Part shown: piece after piece, positions 4,129 to 33,789 of the stretch
How positions within the stretch are numbered: the first letter of the stretch is position 1
How the letters are laid out: every line of letters begins with the position of its first letter
Source of the DNA: Pseudomonas sp. KBW05
GTDB lineage: Bacteria; Pseudomonadota; Gammaproteobacteria; Pseudomonadales; Pseudomonadaceae
NCBI RefSeq assembly: GCF_003852405.1
Contig: NZ_QAJM01000023.1
Coordinates: 62,001 to 126,000 of the forward strand
Length of the DNA: 64,000 bases
Reading direction: 5' to 3'
Notes under the pieces: model-generated
What the model saw: only the letters and a program-made list of their open reading frames with translations
Database searches by the model: none
Told to the model about the DNA's origin: nothing
Translations under genes and position numbers: made by a program

Positions 4129-5292
4129 ATGTCAGGTCCCTTGGCGTCCCTCAAAGTGCTGGATTTCTCCACCTTGTTGCCTGGCCCGTTTGCGTCCTTG
4201 ATGCTCGCGGACATGGGCGCCGAGGTCTTGCGCATCGAATCGCCCACACGCATGGACCTGTTGCGGGTGCTGCCGCCCCATGACCGGGGCACGTCGGCGA
4301 GCCATGCCTACCTCAATCGCAACAAGCGCAGCCTGGCCCTGGACCTCAAGCAGGCCGAAGCGTTGGAGATCGTGCGCGCGTTGGTCAAGGGGTACGACAT
4401 TGTGCTTGAGCAGTTTCGCCCTGGGGTGATGGAGCGGCTGGGTTTGGGCTATGAGGCGTTGAAGGCGATCAACCCGCGGCTGATTTATGTGTCGATCACC
4501 GGCTACGGACAGACCGGCCCTTACAAGGACCGTGCCGGGCACGATATCAACTACCTGGCGCTGGCCGGTGTGGCCAGCCACACCGGGCGCCAGGACAGCG
4601 GGCCGTTGCCCCTGGGCGTGCAATTGGCGGATGTGGGCGGTGGCTCGTTGCACGCCGTCGTCGGGTTGCTGGCGGCGGTGATTGCCCGGCAGCACAGTGG
4701 TGTTGGCCAATACCTCGACGTGAGCATGACTGACTGCTCGTTCAGCCTGAACGCCATGGCCGCTGCGGGTTATCTGGCGTGCGGGGTGGAGCCTGGGTGG
4801 GAAAACCATGTACTGAACGGCGGCAGTTTTTATGACTATTACCGCACCCGGGATGGGCGGTGGATGTCGGTGGGCAGTCTTGAACCCGCGTTTATGCAAC
4901 AGCTCTGCGCGGCATTGGGGCGTCCGGAGTTGGCGGCGCTGGGGCTGTCGCCCCAGCTCAAGCCTGCGCTGCAAGTCGAGTTTGAGAAGCGTAGTTTCGA
5001 TGAGTTGTGTGCATTGTTTGCCGAGGTGGATGCCTGCGTCGAACCGGTGCTGAGTTTCAGTGAGGCGGTTGAGCATCCCCAGTTGAAGGCGCGGGCATTG
5101 GTCAGCCAAGTGCCTAGGGGTGATGGTTCGAGCCAGGCGCAACTGGCGTGTCCGTTGAAGTTCTCGCAGGGTTTGCCGGCGCCTCGGCATATTGGGGTGG
5201 CGGTGGGGGCGCACAGTGATGAGGTGTTGGCGGAGTTGGGGTTCAGTGCTCAGCGGATCGAGGATTTGCGGCAGGCCAAGGTTATTGGTTGA
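4129..5292 (+). CDS. Class III CoA-transferase (CaiB/BaiF/Frc family)
   Basis: 387 residues. The N-terminus (LKVLDFSTLLPGPFASLMLADMG.EV..IE) and LNRNKRSLALDLK are family hallmarks, followed by the conserved Asp region (GHDINYLALAG) and a SMTDCS segment. These enzymes move CoA between acyl groups through a glutamyl or aspartyl anhydride intermediate. The substrate cannot be told from sequence; alpha-methylacyl-CoA racemase is a close alternative. The ATG at 4129 was chosen over a GTG at 4099 because a GGAG-type site (near 4119) precedes it. It is divergent from tusD and monocistronic. Confidence 0.82.
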   Translation: MSGPLASLKVLDFSTLLPGPFASLMLADMGAEVLRIESPTRMDLLRVLPPHDRGTSASHAYLNRNKRSLALDLKQAEALEIVRALVKGYDIVLEQFRPGVMERLGLGYEALKAINPRLIYVSITGYGQTGPYKDRAGHDINYLALAGVASHTGRQDSGPLPLGVQLADVGGGSLHAVVGLLAAVIARQHSGVGQYLDVSMTDCSFSLNAMAAAGYLACGVEPGWENHVLNGGSFYDYYRTRDGRWMSVGSLEPAFMQQLCAALGRPELAALGLSPQLKPALQVEFEKRSFDELCALFAEVDACVEPVLSFSEAVEHPQLKARALVSQVPRGDGSSQAQLACPLKFSQGLPAPRHIGVAVGAHSDEVLAELGFSAQRIEDLRQAKVIG

Positions 5293-5304
5293 CTGGTCCG
5301 GCGC

Positions 5305-5389
5305 CTTCGCGAGCAAGCCCGCTCCCACATTGGATCGGTGATCGACATGACAACGCGGTCAAATGTGGGAGCTGGCTTGCCTGCGATGA
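5305..5389. repeat. Pair of inverted REP sequences
   Basis: An outward copy (5305-5331, GCAAGCCCGCTCCCACATT) faces a diverged reverse copy (5361-5389). Such paired units (BIME-like) lie between convergent genes here. Confidence 0.75.
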
Positions 5390-5394
5390 GGCCC

Positions 5395-5889
5395 TCACTC
5401 CACCCGCGTCTCCCCGGTAAATACCAGGGTCTGCCGGCACCGCCGACACAAATACCGCCGCCCCTGGGCCACCAACCCATGGCGCTGCGCTGAAAACGGA
5501 AAGTCACTGTCCGCACACGGGCAGCGGTAGATGTACCGCATCACCTGGCGCCGTTTCACCGCATAGGTATGGCAACGGTCCGGCGGCAGTTCGTACACCC
5601 CGCGCATGATCAACTGCCATTCCTCGCCATGGGGCTGGATGCGCTCGCCAAACAGTTGGTGGGCAATCAAATGCGCCACTTCATGGGCCACGGTCTGTTT
5701 CAGGAAGTGCTGGCTGTTTTCGCGGTACAACTGGGGGTTGAAGCGCAGCAGGTTCTCGTGCAAATGCGCGACACCGGCCTTCTGGCCCCGCAGCTTGAGG
5801 CTGACCTGAGGGCGTTTGAAGCTTCGTTTGAAAAAGGATTCGGCTTGTTGGAAACAATCTTCGACGCGGGTGTTGAGCTGCTCGGGCAT
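5395..5889 (-). CDS. sprT: SprT-like zinc metalloprotease family protein
   Basis: 164 residues starting MPEQLNTRVEDC. The zinc-peptidase motif HEVAH (in QTVAHEVAHLIAHQ) lies in the middle, and the C-terminal half carries a Cys-pair zinc ribbon (YRCPC...YLCRRCRQ). SprT proteins are related to the SPRTN DNA-protein-crosslink proteases; their bacterial substrate is not established. The ATG at 5889 was chosen because the frame upstream (to 5985) has no family similarity and overlaps a terminator-like hairpin. It lies downstream of the Yip1 gene on the same strand. Confidence 0.85.
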   Translation of the reverse strand: MPEQLNTRVEDCFQQAESFFKRSFKRPQVSLKLRGQKAGVAHLHENLLRFNPQLYRENSQHFLKQTVAHEVAHLIAHQLFGERIQPHGEEWQLIMRGVYELPPDRCHTYAVKRRQVMRYIYRCPCADSDFPFSAQRHGLVAQGRRYLCRRCRQTLVFTGETRVE

Positions 5890-5976
5890 GCTGTACCTAT
5901 CTCCAGAGACGCCCAGTATGCCGCAAAGGCGGGTGTTTCCGAATCTGTCAGGCGCCGAATGGTCGCACATAACGCA

Positions 5977-6000
5977 CAAAGCCACCTTGCGGTGGCTTTG
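5977..6000. terminator. Hairpin between Yip1-like gene and sprT
   Basis: Inverted repeat CAAAGCCACC (5977-5986), loop TTGC, GGTGGCTTTG (5991-6000). It can form in both directions; there is no long T-tract, so its strength as a terminator is uncertain. Confidence 0.55.
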
Positions 6001-6018
6001 CCCAAGGTTTGAACGCGC

Positions 6019-6621
6019 TCAACTGGTGTAGATCGGCCCTACACCCAGGCCCCAGACAATCACGGTAAACGCCATGATTGCCACCAGCACGACCAGCCCT
6101 ACGGCCAGCACCGAACTGGAAAACAGGAAACCCTCGTCGGGGTCGATGTTCATGAAGGTCGGCAGCCCCACATACAGTAGGTACACCGTGTAGCAAATCG
6201 CCGCCGTGCCCACGACCATGCCCAGCCACATATGTGGATACAGCGCGGCCAACCCGCCGATAAACAACGGTGTCGCCGTATAGGTCGCGAACGCCACGCA
6301 CCGCGGCATGCTGGGGTTGGCATCGTAGGTACGGGCCATCCAATGAATGAACGCGCCCATCACCGCCACGCCGCCGAGCATGGCGGCGTAAGACATCAGG
6401 GTCATCCACAAGGCGCTTTCCTGGGTCAGCATGACCGGAGCGCGGTTGCCGATGACCCAGCCGACCTGGGTGGTGCCGATAAAGGCTGATACGGCGGGGA
6501 TCGCCGCAAGAATCAGCGTATGGGTGAGGTACATGTGGCCGATGCTTTCTTCTTTATCGCCACGGATTTCCCGCCATTCCCGGTCGGGATGGGTAAATAG
6601 CCCCACGACGTGATGGATCAT
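6019..6621 (-). CDS. Yip1 family inner-membrane protein
   Basis: 200 residues with about five hydrophobic segments, beginning MIHHVVGLFTHPDREWREIR, the N-terminus of bacterial Yip1/DUF1282 proteins. Further conserved pieces are FATYTATPLFIGG and the long C-terminal TM segment. Function unknown; a role in envelope or membrane organisation is inference. The start at 6621 was chosen for the family N-terminus; the frame extends to 6714 without similarity. It is single-gene, divergent from ttcA. Confidence 0.78.
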   Translation of the reverse strand: MIHHVVGLFTHPDREWREIRGDKEESIGHMYLTHTLILAAIPAVSAFIGTTQVGWVIGNRAPVMLTQESALWMTLMSYAAMLGGVAVMGAFIHWMARTYDANPSMPRCVAFATYTATPLFIGGLAALYPHMWLGMVVGTAAICYTVYLLYVGLPTFMNIDPDEGFLFSSSVLAVGLVVLVAIMAFTVIVWGLGVGPIYTS

Positions 6622-6824
6622 GCCAGTCACTCCTGTCGTTATTACCATCGCCCCCCAGCGGAGCGCCCACGGGCCAATTGGCCTGAAAGGTCCTGGATAT
6701 GTGTGCGACCTCAAGTCGCAGTATAGGAAGGGATGACCGGAATAACTGTAGGGCCTTTAGAGCAAATTGCGCTGTAAACATTGGCTCTAATCGCGCTGAG
6801 GTCTGTCAGGAGTGCCGTAATTAC

Positions 6825-6917
6825 AATGTGGGAGCGGGCTTGCTCGCGAAAGCGGTGTGTCAGTCACTGAATGTATTTCTGATCCACCGCTTTCGCGAGC
6901 AAGCCCGCTCCCACATT
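6825..6917. repeat. Inverted REP pair with 33-bp arms
   Basis: Arms at 6825-6857 and 6885-6917 are reverse complements (GTGGGAGCGGGCTTGCTCGCG core), with a 27-bp centre. It fills most of the gap of about 390 bp (6622-7013) between the Yip1 gene and ttcA. The remainder shows no other gene. Confidence 0.88.
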
Positions 6918-7013
6918 AAGCCAGCTCTCACATTGGATCGGCGTCGCCCATTGAAGTATTTTTGCGTAAAATACTGCGCTTTTCGTCACACACCTTTTGC
7001 GGATCCAAGCGCC

Positions 7014-7838
7014 ATGGGCACTCTTACGGTCAACCAGAACAAACTGCAAAAACGCCTGCGTCGCCTGGCCGGTGAAGCGGTCGCCGATTTCAACATGATC
7101 GAGGACGGCGACAAGGTCATGGTCTGCCTCTCCGGCGGCAAAGACAGCTACACCCTGCTCGACGTGCTGCTGCACCTGCAGAAGGTCGCGCCGATCACGT
7201 TCCAGATCGTCGCCGTCAACATGGACCAGAAACAACCGGGCTTCCCCGAGCACGTGCTGCCGGCCTACCTCAAGGAGCTGGGCGTCGAGTACCACATCGT
7301 CGAGAAAGACACCTATTCGGTGGTCAAGGAACTGATCCCGGAAGGCAAGACCACCTGCTCGCTGTGCTCGCGCCTGCGCCGTGGCACGCTCTACACCTTT
7401 GCCGATGAAATCGGCGCAACCAAGATGGCCCTGGGTCATCACCGCGACGACATCGTCGAGACCTTCTTCCTCAATATGTTCTTCAACGGCTCGCTCAAGG
7501 CCATGCCGCCCAAGCTGCGCGCCGATGACGGACGCAACGTGGTGATCCGCCCGCTGGCGTATTGCAACGAGAAGGACATCCAGGCCTACTCCGACTTCAA
7601 GCAATTCCCGATCATCCCGTGCAACCTGTGTGGCTCCCAGGAAAACCTGCAGCGCCAGGTGGTCAAGGAGATGCTGCTGGACTGGGAGCGCAAGACCCCA
7701 GGCCGCACCGAGAGTATCTTCCGCAGCCTGCAGAACGTGCAGCCGTCGCAGTTGGCCGACCGCAATCTGTTTGACTTCACCAGCCTCAAGATCGATGAGA
7801 GCGCCGCGTCGCGCTTCGTCAATGTAGTGAACCTCTAA
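7014..7838 (+). CDS. ttcA: tRNA 2-thiocytidine(32) synthetase TtcA
   Basis: 274 residues. PP-loop motif SGGKDS near residue 41, then two CxxC motifs (CSLCSR and CNLCGS) that, with a cluster ligand, hold the Fe-S centre used for thiolation. TtcA forms s2C at position 32 of some tRNAs using ATP and a sulfur donor. ATG 7014 begins [15 protein letters not shown], the usual N-terminus; the longer frame from 6699 runs through the REP element and is not coding. It is followed by a short terminator-like hairpin. Confidence 0.95.
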
Positions 7839-26290: not shown

Positions 26291-26381
26291 GGGAAATTGG
26301 CAGAGTGGTTGAATGCACCGGTCTTGAAAACCGGCGAACGTTAATAGCGTTCCCAGGGTTCGAATCCCTGGTTTCCCGCCA
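26291..26381 (+). tRNA. tRNA-Ser(UGA)
   Basis: A cloverleaf with acceptor GGGAAAT/GTTTCCC, D-arm, anticodon stem CCGGT/ACCGG enclosing anticodon TGA, a long variable arm typical of class II tRNAs, the T-arm CAGGG-TTCGAAT-CCCTG and an encoded CCA end. The gene is complete and abuts the integrase end of the prophage, so its 3' half is the probable attachment site (attL). No second copy of the 3' end is visible in the window. Confidence 0.96.
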
Positions 26382-26390
26382 AGATTCAAA

Positions 26391-26417
26391 CAAAAGCCCC
26401 GCAATGTGGGGCTTTTG
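26391..26417 (+). terminator. Hairpin terminator after tRNA-Ser
   Basis: CAAAAGCCCC (26391-26400), 7-nt loop, GGGGCTTTTG (26408-26417), followed by TGTTTTT. It ends tRNA transcription and, read the other way, can end the leftward integrase transcript. Confidence 0.85.
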
Positions 26418-26455
26418 TGTTTTTGGGGTTTGGGTGGAACGCGGCGGTTTTTCAG

Positions 26456-26494
26456 AGGCGTTCCGAAACTTTCGGGTAGGCGTTCCGAAACTTT
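26456..26494. repeat. Two 17-bp direct repeats beside attL
   Basis: AGGCGTTCCGAAACTTT occurs exactly at 26456-26472 and 26478-26494 (22-bp spacing, about two helical turns). An inverted partial copy GGAACGC is at 26436-26442. Position between the tRNA core and the integrase gene fits arm-type integrase binding sites. Confidence 0.7.
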
Positions 26495-26496
26495 GC

Positions 26497-27546
26497 CTAT
26501 TTTGATGGTTTAGCAGTGGCGCCGATCCTCCTGTAAACCCGCTTCGTGATCTCCTGCTTGCTGTGTCCAAGTAGCAGGCTTGCGTCGCCAATATCGATGA
26601 TTTCCGATGCTGCTTTAGGTCGGATGTCGCGAAACTGAAAACCGCCAATCTTCGCGGCGAGGAGGGGATCGCCCTCTTCGACTGCTTTGGCGCAAGCTTT
26701 TTCCCGCGCCTTGTCCCAGCGCAAGCGCAGCATTCCCTTCGTCATCCGCTTTCCGTGCCTGTTTATCAGCAAGTACTTCGAGAGGTGACCGGCATTCCTC
26801 TCCGTAATTTCCCGAATCAGCCTACCCAAGCTGTTTTCTCCCTCCTCTGTGCACATCAGGATCCTTAGCTTCAGCCCCGTTTTGCCTTGCGTGACCAAGA
26901 AGTAGTCGCCCTCAACGTCGTCCCTGCGCATGGCGATCACGTCTGCTGGCCGCTGGCCTGTCAGGTAGCCCAGGTCCATGGCTTCCTTGAGTTCCGGCTC
27001 AGCCATCCCGTAGACCGCATCCCAAACCGCGGCGTTGGCGTAGTAATCACGTGGTGTTTCCTTGTTCTTGCGGATGCCCTGGCACGGATTCTCCCGCTCG
27101 GTCAGGCCCCATTCCCGCGCCATGTTGAACACGTGGGAGAGTAGGGCGATCTCCCGATTCGCCCGTACTTTGGCGGTACGGGCGTCGCGGTATCCGGCGA
27201 TACTGGCTGGTGTGATTGAGTCGATGGGCGCCCCGTCGAACATGGGCCGCAATTGTTTGAGCTCGGCTAGGTTGTCCTTCTGGGTACGCTCGCCTTTTTT
27301 CGGAATGACGTCGCGGGCGTATCGATCAAAGATCCCCTTCATCATCGTCAGATCGGCTGGCTTTTCTTTGGACTCAAGCTCTGCCCACTTCAATCGGGCT
27401 TTGCTCAAATCTCCCCCAAGCGGGATCTCCTTTCCCGTTGAGTCTCTGTAGTAATAACCCACCCAAACTTTACCGTTCTTACGAGGGCGTTTTCTCCGCA
27501 CCATTCCCGGCGGTAAGTCCCTGTTCTCAGTGTTTCGAGGTCGCAT
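26497..27546 (-). CDS. int: Tyrosine-recombinase phage integrase
   Basis: 349 residues: an N-terminal arm-binding part, a core-binding SAM-like domain (about 65-150) and a catalytic domain. Catalytic residues visible: Arg199 (TGQRPAD), Lys222 (QGKTG), Arg309 (FRDIRP), His328 (LLGHS) and Tyr338 (RVYRR). The first histidine of the usual HxxR box is replaced by Arg306, as in some families. It reads toward the tRNA and is last in the leftward operon, its start 2 bp after the DUF4224-like stop. It catalyses integration at tRNA-Ser. Confidence 0.94.
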   Translation of the reverse strand: MRPRNTENRDLPPGMVRRKRPRKNGKVWVGYYYRDSTGKEIPLGGDLSKARLKWAELESKEKPADLTMMKGIFDRYARDVIPKKGERTQKDNLAELKQLRPMFDGAPIDSITPASIAGYRDARTAKVRANREIALLSHVFNMAREWGLTERENPCQGIRKNKETPRDYYANAAVWDAVYGMAEPELKEAMDLGYLTGQRPADVIAMRRDDVEGDYFLVTQGKTGLKLRILMCTEEGENSLGRLIREITERNAGHLSKYLLINRHGKRMTKGMLRLRWDKAREKACAKAVEEGDPLLAAKIGGFQFRDIRPKAASEIIDIGDASLLLGHSKQEITKRVYRRIGATAKPSK

Positions 27547-27547
27547 C

Positions 27548-28045
27548 TCAGTTCACCCTGGAGAAGTCAGGTGTCCAAGCTGGTCTCGCCGGCGGTGTGC
27601 TCTGTTCTGCGAACGTTGGACTGGTCATGCCAAGCTTCATACGAGCGTACATTCGCCCGACCAATGGGCGGCCACCACGGCTCTCAACGAATACCCAATT
27701 GCGGTCGTTGAGCCATCTCCGTTGATGGGCACGCTGCTTGTATCCAGTCAGGTCGGCCAGTTCTTCGTCCGAGAAAATTTCAGTTTCTAAAGTTCTGGTG
27801 AGTGAATGGTGCGTATACCCCAAGGCAGGCTGCGCGAGCGGGCGTTCCTGAGCGTTTAGCGTTGCATCAGCGAGCGCTGCCCCGCGCAGCTTTTCGTGGG
27901 GTACACGTGCCTCGGCAGTGGCGCTGGAAGGAGCAGTAATGCCTGCTGCTGCGCAGCAGAGACTGTTTGTTTCTAGCGTGTCGCCACCATTGGCTATGCG
28001 GAGCAAAGCGGGCAGGGCGTTGGTGTTGTCCTGGTGGTTCTTCAT
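27548..28045 (-). CDS. DUF4224-like small phage protein, adjacent to int
   Basis: 165 residues. The C-terminal third (about 95-150: FSDEELADLTGYKQRAHQRR followed by WL..RNW and GRPLVGRMYARMKLG) resembles the DUF4224 domain often encoded next to phage integrases; a role as recombination directionality factor has been suggested by position only. The N-terminal half is low-complexity. Start 28045 (MKNHQD) overlaps the HD gene stop by 4 bp; the longer frame to 28291 lies inside that gene. Confidence 0.68.
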   Translation of the reverse strand: MKNHQDNTNALPALLRIANGGDTLETNSLCCAAAGITAPSSATAEARVPHEKLRGAALADATLNAQERPLAQPALGYTHHSLTRTLETEIFSDEELADLTGYKQRAHQRRWLNDRNWVFVESRGGRPLVGRMYARMKLGMTSPTFAEQSTPPARPAWTPDFSRVN

Positions 28046-28584
28046 GCCGCTTTCCTCCGGTGTTCGATAGCGAGCTGGTCCATCAGGCGCTGGTGGTAGG
28101 TGAGTCGGGCTTCTGCGGCAGGCCATGAACGGATGGTTTCGGCCATGGGTTCGATGCCGACCAAGCAATCCCAGATAGCCGGATCTGTTGGCATGAGGTC
28201 GCGGCGTTCGGTCGCCAGTGCAATCAGGTCGGCCTTGTAGATGCAGGCGGGGAGTTCTGGAGCGATGTCGAAACGCTCGCAAATACGCCACCAGATGCAG
28301 TCCTCGAAGTGCTGGTAGGCGCTAAGCCACTGCTTGAGTGGCCGTGTCATGTCGCCCACGTACGCCTCGGCGGCATCGTGGAGCAAGGCCGCGAGCTTGT
28401 ACTCTTCCGGCACCAGCTCGGCGACGATGCAGCTGTGCTGGGCCACGCTGTAGAACTCGCGGGTGTGGCCGTTGAAGCGGCACAGGTGGGCCAGCGAGTG
28501 CGAGATGTCCCGTGGGTCGATCATGTCGGCGTCGGGCTCGAACAGGTCGAAGCGCTTGCCGGTGGAGGTGAGGATCCAGTTCAT
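28042..28584 (-). CDS. HD-domain phosphohydrolase, phage type
   Basis: 180 residues. HD motif: FYSVAQHSCIVAELV (His), LLHDAAEAYVGDM (His-Asp) and a later Asp (ADLIALATER), as in YfbR-like nucleotidases. Such phage genes may adjust nucleotide pools. The N-terminus (TSTGKRFDLFEPDADMIDPRDIS) is typical of the phage form. Coupled by 4-bp overlaps to both neighbours in the leftward operon. Confidence 0.82.
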   Translation of the reverse strand: MNWILTSTGKRFDLFEPDADMIDPRDISHSLAHLCRFNGHTREFYSVAQHSCIVAELVPEEYKLAALLHDAAEAYVGDMTRPLKQWLSAYQHFEDCIWWRICERFDIAPELPACIYKADLIALATERRDLMPTDPAIWDCLVGIEPMAETIRSWPAAEARLTYHQRLMDQLAIEHRRKAA

Positions 28585-30021: not shown

Positions 30022-30591
30022 CTAGGCTGCATGCGCGGCAGGAGTCGCCACGGCAGCCAGGTGGGTGATGGATTCGGCGACCATGGAGTAGATCTCCACG
30101 TCGCTGCCGTACACCGTGAAGCACTTGGAGCGCGGCTTTCTGACGCCGATGCTCATGATGGTGGTGATGCCGGTGCGGGATTTGTTGCGGTGGATCGCCA
30201 GGTTGATTGGTTGCTCAAAACCCATGTCGAGGCTGAGCGCGCCGCCGGTTCGCACCAGGTCGAACACCTGTTGCCTGTGCTCCGTTTCAAACACACCGTA
30301 ACGGCGATCAGCGTGCGGCGTGGCAGGGTTGGAAGGCCCGTTGACGATCTCTTCAATGAAGTCCGCAAGCTTGAGGTGCATCTTCTTGCTGTTGGTCAGG
30401 GTCAGCGTGTGGCGTTCGCTGCCTAGTTCAACGGTGAAGTGCGTGTCGGCAATGCGGCGTTCGACTTTCAGGCGAAAGGACAGGGCTTGGCGCTGTGTTT
30501 CGGTGCGGAGGAGGTGGTTAAAGGTTTCGGTCAGGCTGACCTGGGCCTTGAGCAAGGCCAGGGTGCGGTTGTCGAGTTTGTACTTGCTCAT
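30022..30591 (-). CDS. Phage early protein, unknown
   Basis: 189 residues, MSKYKLDNRTLALLKAQVSL..., with an N-terminal basic helix and a mixed alpha/beta body (MHLKLADFIEEIVNG, YGVFETEHRQQVFDLV). No recognisable domain. It is coupled to the 58-residue gene by a 4-bp overlap. Confidence 0.68.
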   Translation of the reverse strand: MSKYKLDNRTLALLKAQVSLTETFNHLLRTETQRQALSFRLKVERRIADTHFTVELGSERHTLTLTNSKKMHLKLADFIEEIVNGPSNPATPHADRRYGVFETEHRQQVFDLVRTGGALSLDMGFEQPINLAIHRNKSRTGITTIMSIGVRKPRSKCFTVYGSDVEIYSMVAESITHLAAVATPAAHAA

Positions 30592-30799: not shown

Positions 30800-30828
30800 A
30801 ATATCAACTGATAGTTGATTTTTGTCAA
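30800..30828 (-). promoter_or_regulatory. Leftward early promoter with 17-bp palindromic operator
   Basis: On the minus strand: -35 TTGACA (30828-30823), 17-bp spacer, -10 GATATT (30805-30800). The palindrome ATCAACTGATAGTTGAT (30803-30819) occupies the spacer and enters the -10. The same half-sites occur at the repressor/cro boundary (33773-33789), so this is the likely PL operator. The ATPase gene starts about 90 bp to the right. Confidence 0.78.
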
Positions 30829-30910
30829 TGATGTCCATCGTTTGATGGCAAATTGCTTCCTCCGTCTGTACGCTTTAATCAACCTCAATGGAATGTAAAG
30901 GGTGTAAAAA

Positions 30911-32281
30911 TTGATCCATTCATGTGAGTTTCAAGGGAAAACGATAAAGTTTTATAATGATAATGTGGTAGACGGTAGAAATATTTTTACTACGATTGTC
31001 GGGAAAAATGGTTCTGGTAAAAGTCGTCTTTTAAGGCATTTGATTACAACTTGTATTAATCTTTATAAGCAAGCTGGAGTGCCTGTAACTTTGTTGGAGA
31101 GTATTAATGCATCTCAAGAAATCCCTAGTAATATAATTGCTCTTTCGACAAGTCCGTTCGATAGGTTTCCTATTGGAAATATGATTGGAGGTGCGCGAGA
31201 GGATGCGAGCCTATTAAATGATGTTCAAGGCTATTATTACTATCATGGGCTCAGAGGGCTTTATAGTTCTAATTTAAGCATATCTTTTATGACGCGAATC
31301 ATCGGTGGAGTGATCAAGGCGCTAACATCAGATAATGGCAGACTTGGTACGGTTCTCGATGTTCTGGATTATTTAGGATACCACAAAAACATTAGGGCTC
31401 GTTTTATATGTGGTATTACAAGTTCTATGTTGACGCAACTTGCTTTTTCAGAAGATTTTATGGGGGATCGTGAGAAGCTATATAATCGAGGGGGCGCAGA
31501 TTTAAAGCGGGTCATCGGTCGATTAGAGGAAATGCCCAATAGCTATAGAGTTGCTGTATTCGATGCGATTAAAAATTATGTTGGAGATCTGCATAAAGGA
31601 GGTATAGAAGTCTCTATCTCGGTGGATGGAACTTTAAATGCAATGACTAATTGCCCGATTGAGGGCAATTTTGCGTTGCTCATGGAGTCTGGAGTATTAA
31701 GGCTTCGAGATCTAGTGTTGCACAAAAAAAATCTTGAAAAAGGTTTTAGGATTAGCGATGCCAGCTCTGGTGAACAGTGTGTTTTGCTTGCTATGTTGGG
31801 TATAGCTTCCAGGATTACAGATGGATCTTTGATTTGCATTGATGAGCCAGAGATCTGTCTGCACCCTGAGTGGCAAGAAAGATACATTAAGCTTTTGATT
31901 TCGACTTTTAGAGAGTTTAAGTCTTGTCACTTTATTATTGCGACTCACTCTCCGCAAATCATATCGCGATTAGAGGATGTTAACTGTTTTATACTGGACT
32001 TACAGCATAATTTAGTAATGAATGCTGGTGATTATAGTCGGCGCTCGGCCGATTTTCAGTTGGCTCATGTTTTCGGCGCTCCCGGCTACAAAAATGAATA
32101 TTTGATGCGGGAGCTATTGGCTGTTATTGGCAAGCTCTCTGCAGGCTTGGAGATGGCGGAAGATAAGAAAGAAATGTTCAGGCGGCTCGTAGCACTTAAG
32201 CCTGTTTTAGAACCATCGGATCCAGTTTATCAGCTGACGCAGCTTCTTGAGGAAGCACTCGGAGATACTGGTGATGAGTAA
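30911..32281 (+). CDS. ABC-type ATPase of a Septu-like anti-phage module (PtuA-like)
   Basis: 456 residues. Walker A GKNGSGKS (31-38), ABC signature SSGEQC (285-290), Walker B SLICIDEPE (306-314) and switch His in ATHSPQI (346); the middle (50-280) has no domain I know. It belongs to the AAA/ABC-ATPase type seen in Septu, OLD-like and related defences. The HNH gene follows with an 8-bp overlap, the PtuA-PtuB arrangement. The start is TTG 30911, 8 bp after AAAGGG. Codon use is strikingly AT-rich compared with neighbouring phage genes, suggesting recent transfer. The exact Septu subtype cannot be set without a search. Confidence 0.78.
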   Translation: MIHSCEFQGKTIKFYNDNVVDGRNIFTTIVGKNGSGKSRLLRHLITTCINLYKQAGVPVTLLESINASQEIPSNIIALSTSPFDRFPIGNMIGGAREDASLLNDVQGYYYYHGLRGLYSSNLSISFMTRIIGGVIKALTSDNGRLGTVLDVLDYLGYHKNIRARFICGITSSMLTQLAFSEDFMGDREKLYNRGGADLKRVIGRLEEMPNSYRVAVFDAIKNYVGDLHKGGIEVSISVDGTLNAMTNCPIEGNFALLMESGVLRLRDLVLHKKNLEKGFRISDASSGEQCVLLAMLGIASRITDGSLICIDEPEICLHPEWQERYIKLLISTFREFKSCHFIIATHSPQIISRLEDVNCFILDLQHNLVMNAGDYSRRSADFQLAHVFGAPGYKNEYLMRELLAVIGKLSAGLEMAEDKKEMFRRLVALKPVLEPSDPVYQLTQLLEEALGDTGDE

Positions 32282-32984
32282 TAGTACGCCTTATTTGAGT
32301 CCGATTGTTTTTGTTGGAAATGAAAAGGCGTATGTAGATGCGTATAATAAAAAGCCGAAGTCGGAAAAAAATGGCGCGACATGGGATGGTGATGATGCTG
32401 GTCTGGTAAAAGTTAAAAAAGTAATTAAAGATTATTACCTAAAAATTCAGGATTATACTTGTGCCTATTGCAGACAGAGGATTGAAGTCGGGCATAATGG
32501 CGCTTGGGATACTGAACATATAATTCCTAAGGATAGCTATCCTCAGTTTCTATTCGAGCCAGAGAACTTGTGCGTGAGTTGTAAAGATTGCAATGGAGCT
32601 AAAACTAATAAGGAAGTATTGAGGCGTAAGGGGCGGGTGAAATTTCCACGAGAAGCTAAAGACTATCTGTTTTGTCATCCTTATTTTCATGTCTACACAG
32701 ATCACGTCAGAGTAGTAAGGAAGGCTGCTCTTTACCTACCCAAGACTGAAGAGGGTAAGCGGCTAATTGAAATTTGTGGCTTGCTTAGGTTTGTACTGAA
32801 GTTTGCTGATTACGACTGTGTAGATGAAGAAATTAGTATGAAATTGATTATGCTTGCTACAGAATTGCAGAATACATCCAGTCCTATGGAGCAGATGGCA
32901 ATAATGATGCTTGCCAATAAAATGCTTGAAGAGAAAATGCAAGGCATGACCGTGGCTGCGATGAAGAGATATGCCCAAGATTAG
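32274..32984 (+). CDS. HNH endonuclease of a Septu-like module (PtuB-like)
   Basis: 236 residues. Zinc pair C63-C66 (TCAYC), then the HNH core: E81-H82 in DTEHIIPK, N98 in PENLC, C103-C106-N107 in SCKDCN and K110. Known PtuB proteins pair an HNH nuclease with a PtuA ATPase. The C-terminal half is helical with no known domain. ATG 32274 lies within the ATPase end; a GGAG site precedes it. The gene is also AT-rich. Its end is 8 bp from the convergent repressor gene's end. Confidence 0.78.
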   Translation: MSNSTPYLSPIVFVGNEKAYVDAYNKKPKSEKNGATWDGDDAGLVKVKKVIKDYYLKIQDYTCAYCRQRIEVGHNGAWDTEHIIPKDSYPQFLFEPENLCVSCKDCNGAKTNKEVLRRKGRVKFPREAKDYLFCHPYFHVYTDHVRVVRKAALYLPKTEEGKRLIEICGLLRFVLKFADYDCVDEEISMKLIMLATELQNTSSPMEQMAIMMLANKMLEEKMQGMTVAAMKRYAQD

Positions 32985-32992
32985 AAGCTTAA

Positions 32993-33724
32993 TTATTCGG
33001 GTATGAATGAGCCGACTACCTTGCCGCAGATATGCGTCTCCTCCGTAATGTCAATGATTGGATATTGCGGATTGATCGGTCTAAGAAACTGTCGGCCAGC
33101 GTCTTCTACCAGTATTTTAAAAGTTGCTTCATTCGTCCGCGGTACTCTCGCAATAACGCGATCTCCTGTTTTTGTCTCAGCTTCAGGATCAACGAAAATT
33201 ATACAGCCTGTTGGATAGCTTCGGCCTGGTCCTGGATTGGTCATTGAGTCGCCTAAGACTTTTAATGCATAACCGTGAATACTGATGGGGACTGGGCATG
33301 ACAACCAAGATTCACTATCATAATTCTCAAAGTTTGAAATCGCTTCGCACCAGGCACCAGCTTGAACCCACGAAATCAATGGAACCTTGCCAAAGCGTTG
33401 ATTGATTTCACTGACGTTGCTTCCGTCACCGTCGTCGAAATTGCGAACGTTGCTTTCGCCTGTCTGCTTTTTCGGTAGCACTCCATACTCTAGCCACTCC
33501 CGCCTAACCTTGAGCCAACAGCACAGCGCAGACATGCTGTCTGCCTCGGCCATCGCTTCCCCATTCAGCCACTTGCTGATGGCCTGGGTAGTCTTGTCCA
33601 CGCCTACGCTTTTCAGCTGACGATGAATATCCACGCCCCGACCCCGACTACGTACGCCGGCATCGTCGAGGGCTTCGTGTAGGCGCTCGCTAAAAGCTGC
33701 GCGAAGAGAGTTTTTATCAACCAT
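32993..33724 (-). CDS. CI-type, LexA-like phage repressor with S24 peptidase domain
   Basis: 243 residues. N-terminal DNA-binding half (about 30-80: KTTQAISKWLNGEAMAEADS) and C-terminal autoprotease: cleavage site Ala122-Gly123 (VQAGAWCE), nucleophile Ser160 (LGDSM) and Lys203 (TFKIL). The full set of catalytic residues suggests RecA-stimulated self-cleavage and SOS-inducible prophage. It is divergent from the Cro-like gene across operators. Target sites are the 17-bp palindromes noted separately; this is inference. Confidence 0.9.
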   Translation of the reverse strand: MVDKNSLRAAFSERLHEALDDAGVRSRGRGVDIHRQLKSVGVDKTTQAISKWLNGEAMAEADSMSALCCWLKVRREWLEYGVLPKKQTGESNVRNFDDGDGSNVSEINQRFGKVPLISWVQAGAWCEAISNFENYDSESWLSCPVPISIHGYALKVLGDSMTNPGPGRSYPTGCIIFVDPEAETKTGDRVIARVPRTNEATFKILVEDAGRQFLRPINPQYPIIDITEETHICGKVVGSFIPE

Positions 33725-33745: not shown

Positions 33746-33789
33746 TTGCACAATAGTCAGTTGATCTATAACATCAACCGTAAGTTGAT
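33746..33789. promoter_or_regulatory. Repressor/cro operator region with divergent promoters
   Basis: A good palindrome ATCAACCGTAAGTTGAT (33773-33789) and a weaker site of the same 17-bp layout (33749-33765, right half AGTTGAT), centres 24 bp apart. Overlapping rightward elements: TTGCAC (33746-33751) and TATAAC (33767-33772). Leftward elements for the repressor: TTGATG and TATTGT on the opposite strand. Spacing between sites resembles lambdoid OR1/OR2. Confidence 0.72.

Follow-up and report, generated by a model that had tools for sequence, protein, structure and literature searches.

A predicted type I Septu gene pair in a variable cargo slot beside the cI repressor gene of a Pseudomonas prophage

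A 64,000-nucleotide stretch of the genome of Pseudomonas sp. KBW05 (contig NZ_QAJM01000023.1, positions 62,001 to 126,000; hereafter the window, to which all coordinates refer) carries a prophage with two coupled genes, ptuA and ptuB, in its immunity region. A preliminary description of the window, made from its letters, had placed a gene for an ATPase and a gene for an HNH nuclease at 30911-32984, and both open reading frames (ORFs) were found exactly there. The TTG start of ptuA is supported because a relative from P. helleri aligns from its own first residue, and the likely start of ptuB is ATG 32274 rather than the upstream TTG 32247, the ptuA stop being overlapped by 8 bases. As had been described, the pair occupies a slot between a leftward early operon, here with a KilAC-domain gene, and a gene for a CI-like repressor, which proved to be of the S24 type; this cI gene is oppositely oriented, and its end is separated from the module by 8 bases. 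The AT-richness that had been judged by eye was confirmed by G+C contents of 0.405 for ptuA and 0.397 for ptuB against 0.612 for the remaining prophage. When the window was scanned in 2,154-base stretches, one every 250 bases, the pair region was the stretch of lowest G+C (0.404, compared with a mean of 0.608 and a standard deviation of 0.043). The module is present in a single copy in the 6.5 Mb genome. Matches to Pseudomonas phages and to the P. helleri relative fit the genus of the host.

The ATPase of 456 residues was matched by the PADLOC PtuA1 profile PDLC00283 in one stretch from residue 8 to residue 450 (E 6e-128), and the HNH protein by the PtuB1 profile PDLC00345 over residues 18-233 of a longer reading of 245 residues (E 4e-74); in Pfam, AAA_21, AAA_15 and HNH were above cut-off. 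The preliminary description had recognised neither the middle of the ATPase nor the C-terminus of the HNH protein and had raised the possibility of a new subtype. Both regions lie within these near full-length matches, so a new Septu subtype was rejected; by profile, the parts that had not been recognised belong to the catalogued PtuA1/PtuB1 group. Alignment of PtuA with nine relatives revealed little or no variation in Walker A (G31-S38), the signature (S285-S286-G287), Walker B (D311-E312) and H346, and alignment of PtuB with eleven relatives revealed that W37, C63, C66, E81, H82, N98, C103, C106, N107 and K110 are invariant. The ATPase and HNH motifs reported as complete are accordingly conserved across ten PtuA and twelve PtuB sequences, and the residue numbers that had been given for Walker B (E312) and HNH (H82) are correct. 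Alignments of 32 sequences agreed on the catalytic positions, except that E81 of PtuB dropped out of the invariant or nearly invariant columns.

The pairing itself recurs: at all 33 loci examined, out of 80 PtuA relatives listed from viral contigs, an ORF of 201-262 residues begins no more than 120 bases after the end of ptuA, and a crude HNH string is present in 26 of these 33 downstream ORFs. Among 6 phage records matching PtuA, only a Vibrio phage covers at least 80% of the protein (31.7% identity). Since a PtuA relative (E ≤ 1e-20) was found in 11 of 299 genomes of the genus, the window's own included, and since a passage of PMC13182921 ranks Septu first in abundance among the defence mechanisms of P. 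syringae, such a pair is not rare.

The AlphaFold model of PtuA (predicted local distance difference test, pLDDT, 87.5) had PtuA chains at ranks 1-17 of its structure matches. For the model of PtuB (pLDDT 89.4), the best match was chain G of 8eea, an E. coli Septu complex, and ranks 1-11 were all chains of PtuAB or retron effector complexes. As modelled, the fold of PtuA resembles that of solved Septu PtuA, and the fold of PtuB that of solved Septu PtuB. AriA of the PARIS system, the best PDB match to PtuA in the single-sequence search, was dismissed as a candidate identity, the match falling mostly within the common ATPase core (residues 284-357). Profile and structure searches put the pair in PtuA/PtuB and not in a non-defence family, and the pair is conserved in relatives; the earlier assignment therefore holds, and, judged from sequence, the two genes are the ptuA and ptuB of an ordinary type I Septu carried by a prophage.

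The same searches bring up a second origin for the pair, as a retron-type (I-A) effector in which PtuAB is restrained by a reverse transcriptase and multicopy single-stranded DNA (msDNA), the retron part having been lost or lying elsewhere. The effectors of the retrons Ec78/Eco7 and Ec83 are PtuAB, with their solved chains among the best fold matches, and retron PtuA and PtuB models are among the NCBIfam matches of the pair. However, the equivalog cut-offs for retron Ec78 were far from reached (46.8 of 500 bits for NF041760 and 29.2 of 150 bits for NF041761), and the slot is filled by ptuA and ptuB alone, without a reverse transcriptase ORF. The sole Rfam match in 26-38 kb was a tRNA, at Rfam thresholds and with the coverage of retron RNAs unchecked. 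The retron effector reading was set aside on the cut-offs, the lack of a reverse transcriptase ORF in the slot and the lack of an Rfam retron RNA match, and we consider it highly improbable.

The slot was compared among related prophages in two samples, located through the backbone gene phrog_15582 to its left, an anchor picked independently of the cargo. The first sample comprised 52 phrog_15582 sites, all of which were read, from 48 genomes out of 399 in the genus, with the window's genome among the 48, and the second comprised 80 viral contigs, the best 80 of 81 relatives. The repressors of the 52 sites fell into six groups, the window's repressor belonging to family I. AT-rich cargo, judged by eye from a table in the first sample, was present at 18 of 19 family I sites and 11 of 11 family II sites (29 of 30 for the two together) and at 0 of 22 sites of the four other families. 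In the viral contigs, where AT-rich cargo was defined as ORFs of at least 150 residues with a G+C below 0.475, the corresponding counts were 47 of 48, 19 of 19 (66 of 67 together) and 0 of 13. Fisher values for cargo against repressor family, with relatedness ignored, were 8.5e-14 and 4.4e-14, respectively. The samples overlap in at least three elements (L202 is the window's element, and L252 with L081 and L263 with L089 have near-identical cargo), and the viral sample also holds near-identical pairs within itself; the cI-only sites L118-L120 were excluded from the counts.

Of the first sample's 30 slots with a family I or II repressor, just one is empty (L080); it measures 286 bases and has an intact operator motif. 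One family I site of the viral sample (L270) has a slot of 1,076 bases without an AT-rich ORF by the above definition. Extra ORFs with a G+C of at least 0.48 lie between anchor and repressor at 6 of the 22 other-family sites (L101, L104, L107, L112, L116 and L117), L107 being borderline at 0.48, and three family V viral sites have about 720 bases from anchor to repressor, of unread content. The cargo is opposed to cI in 17 of 18 and 46 of 47 family I sites of the first and viral samples, respectively, and family II cargo occurs in both orientations (6 of 11 and 8 of 19). Extension of the comparison to the order yielded 2 of 390 genomes, namely the window's own and one already known. In a phage collection, the anchor gene had one close match, on a 7.5 kb fragment that carries no annotation, and, at 31.9 and 38.6% identity, two distant matches in named phages of Pseudomonas.

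The edges of the slot are marked by operator-like sequence (Table 1). The 17-base palindrome at its left edge recurs on the far side of cI; a scan of the window that allowed up to 3 mismatches gave 4 matches, at these 2 places, where 0.04 would be expected, and both palindromes presumably function as CI-type operators. A family I operator motif, allowing up to 2 mismatches and lying 150-300 bases past the anchor gene, was found at all 19 family I sites and at none of the 11 family II sites or the 22 others, and a family II motif at 10 of 11 family II sites and at no site of family I (0 of 19) or of the other families (0 of 22), both motifs having been defined from the very sequences counted. 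At the 33 of 52 sites with an anchor motif (the other 19 are without it), column agreement is 0.92-0.98 over the 40 bases before this motif and 0.57 by 30 bases past its start, falling where the operator lies. Because matches to the promoter consensus are not clearly above chance (9 found, 5.4 expected, standard deviation 2.7), it is solely the overlap with the operator that speaks for the candidate PL promoter of the leftward operon. The cargo lies between the left operator and cI, at 30829-32985 in the window, and therefore in the position of rex in phage lambda, where rexAB is found. Like a rex-type slot, this one has its cargo between an operator-like motif and cI, variable content in relatives and an empty allele (G178, the site L080).

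Table 1. Features of the slot and its borders in the window
Feature	Position	Strand	Evidence
phrog_15582 backbone gene, left anchor for prophage comparison	30022..30591	-	PHROG, E 7e-74
Candidate PL promoter of the leftward operon (TTGACA-17-GATATT)	30800..30828	-	Consensus scan, 10/12; overlaps operator
Left operator-like palindrome ATCAACTGATAGTTGAT, left edge of cargo slot	30803..30819		Motif scan
ptuA, predicted Septu ATPase, 456 aa, TTG start	30911..32281	+	ORF, PADLOC PDLC00283, motifs, predicted fold
ptuB, predicted Septu HNH nuclease, 236 aa	32274..32984	+	ATG 32274; 8-base overlap with ptuA
cI, S24-type prophage repressor, family I, right edge of slot	32993..33724	-	Pfam Peptidase_S24, E 2.5e-23; PHROG transcriptional repressor
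Right operator-like palindrome, between cI and the next rightward gene	33773..33789		Motif scan

To the left of these features, a tRNA-Ser (UGA) gene adjoins a phage integrase gene (window 26291-27546) and is a likely attachment site; a search for an attachment-site repeat of this region at 56-64 kb found no shared word longer than 12 bases. A gene of the early operon (28042-28584) matches phage deoxyribonucleoside 5' monophosphate phosphatase families.

A PADLOC scan of the larger ORFs returned a match (E ≤ 1e-6) in 16 of the 29 filled slots of the first sample, which, together with the comparison of related prophages, bears out the claim of the preliminary description that defence genes accumulate at this position beside the repressor. 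The matches were Septu (twice), Lamassu, PD-T4-10B with PDC-S21, PDC-S20, PDC-S25/ThsA-like (twice), OLD-like, NsnA, retron-type reverse transcriptase (twice), PDC-S59, DNA methyltransferase and PDC-M01, and in addition two weak ones (L070 and L077). Among the 13 slots without a match (L067, L071, L072, L073, L074, L076, L078, L079, L083, L084, L087, L097 and L114), two (L073 and L084) hold a NACHT protein with SNaCT13, of which L118 has a BLASTP relative, and 11 have neither a PADLOC match nor NACHT-SNaCT13. Further families recurring in PADLOC-negative slots are DUF2806 (L071 and L072), a HIT-domain protein with its partner (L074 and L076) and a related pair of 352 and 453 residues (L078 and L079). 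Altogether, 130 cargo proteins, mostly from both samples and including two from the cI-only sites L118 and L120 as well as duplicates such as the window's copy, formed 63 BLASTP families, 37 of them singletons.

This variety bears on whether the pair serves the phage, for example in DNA processing or lysogeny control, rather than guarding the lysogen. Its place inside the immunity region, beside operator and repressor gene, would suit such a service, but no single gene of the slot is needed for the life cycle, because related prophages hold mostly unrelated genes there and one slot is empty. Moreover, none of ten backbone proteins of the window's prophage has a PADLOC match at the threshold that over half of the filled slots pass. 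Service to the phage is, in our estimation, very unlikely.

Septu itself recurs in the slot. Close PtuA relatives followed by PtuB occupy it in four viral contigs (L205, L206, L237 and L281, of which L206 is near-identical to L205), and these four PtuA relatives score 499-534 bits compared with 533 for the window's own copy; weaker PtuA-like matches of 33-70 bits were found in six further viral slots. In L075 (G275, 5262-7299), a Septu pair of 30% identity lies in the same slot on the opposite strand. The Septu copies in the slot look like separate acquisitions. A PtuA relative also lies beyond the anchor gene, outside the slot, on two viral contigs (L134 with L238; L136 with L235), which counts against a strict link between Septu and the slot. 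The cargo site on these contigs may be a second one in the same phage group. In L111, L230 and L271, the slot holds a PtuA-like ATPase and an HNH-like partner oriented with cI, the PADLOC match being PDC-M01 in L111, with its relatives in L230 and L271.

The pair might also be a passive, silent insertion without function in the lysogen, as its foreign base composition and the lack of a recognised promoter directly upstream would allow. Against this, its frames and motifs are intact and divergent intact Septu copies recur in the slot, a recurrence that suggests selection, and we hold a silent insertion to be the least probable of the alternatives, with hardly any likelihood of its own.

With high confidence, we interpret the locus as a type I Septu that the prophage carries as lysogeny cargo in the place of lambda rex and that most likely acts like characterised Septu. 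By analogy, both genes would be expressed in the lysogen, and PtuA and PtuB would form a complex that is inactive until another phage infects. PtuB would then cut nucleic acid, either phage DNA that carries nicks or a tRNA of the host, for instance tRNA-Tyr, and the cleavage would leave the invader few progeny and so protect the lysogen. Infection-triggered nuclease action with an abortive outcome is, taken by itself, quite probable from what is known of such systems. According to passages of PMC13096335, Septu EcB88 depends on its Walker and HNH residues, and T6 infection leads to cleavage of host tRNA-Tyr in the variable loop. Passages of PMC11555353 describe depletion of tRNA-Tyr by the retron-Eco7 PtuAB, an Eco4 PtuAB pair that is likely not tRNA-targeting, and the Septu of E. 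coli ATCC 25922 as reported to act on nicked DNA. Because these relatives differ in what they attack, the target of the window's pair is not readable from homology.

On its own, the pair is one more prophage-borne Septu; the slot is the more important finding. It can be located in related prophages via a flanking gene, it is nearly always filled where the repressor belongs to one of two families, and its AT-rich genes are many and unrelated, about half of the slots (16 of 29) resembling known or candidate defence genes. The remaining cargo therefore offers a small set of candidates for new defence systems, its PADLOC-negative genes being candidates for undescribed defence genes. Defence cargo near cI is an already known idea, and its coupling to the repressor family is unusual. 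We recognised no report that describes the slot or ties it to repressor family in a literature covered mostly as titles and starts of abstracts, with few subscription papers, which is weak evidence of absence; the passages of PMC10884400 and PMC12945033 consulted contained nothing on the slot. We tentatively propose, with more doubt than conviction, that the slot in the rex position is a locus given over to defence, with a near-obligatory occupancy decided by the repressor family, that cargo, operator and repressor form one immunity cassette, and that most of the unrecognised cargo encodes undescribed anti-phage systems. For example, repressors of families I and II might control or tolerate cargo beside the operator, or the phages might depend on the cargo. 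The link to repressor family raises a testable question, namely how a prophage's immunity to itself is coupled to its immunity to others.

Among known systems, the pair is closest to type I Septu (PtuA1/PtuB1, PDLC00283/PDLC00345), with which it shares gene order, near full-length matches, intact motifs and a unit without reverse transcriptase. It shares the ptuA-ptuB pairing with Septu EcB88, the E. coli system with Walker and HNH dependence in the passages of PMC13096335. The pair is only distantly similar in sequence to the E. coli Septu whose structure was solved (8ee4 and 8eea), and the C-terminal helices of its PtuB fall outside most of the PtuB structure matches. The retrons Ec78/Eco7 and Ec83/Eco4, as presented in passages of PMC11555353, have effectors from the same two protein families, but their reverse transcriptase and msDNA were not found at the window's pair. 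As for location, a passage of PMC8585504 counts the cI-N region of lambdoid phages among the known hotspots of mosaic diversity and places bstA downstream of cI, and one of PMC12894663 describes RexAB-type genes (RexABpp) adjoining the repressor gene of a P. putida prophage. Lambda rexAB, bstA and RexABpp are similar to the present cargo in that defence genes adjoin cI. In these passages, however, they are described downstream of the repressor gene, and bstA and RexABpp presumably share its promoter or operon, whereas family I cargo of the window's group is nearly always opposed to cI, and that of the window is Septu. The hotspots of P2-like phages, of P4-like satellites and of the Vibrionaceae cI-integrase locus, as described in passages of PMC9122126, likewise combine a fixed phage locus with swappable defence cargo that includes Septu, but belong to other phage groups and other loci.
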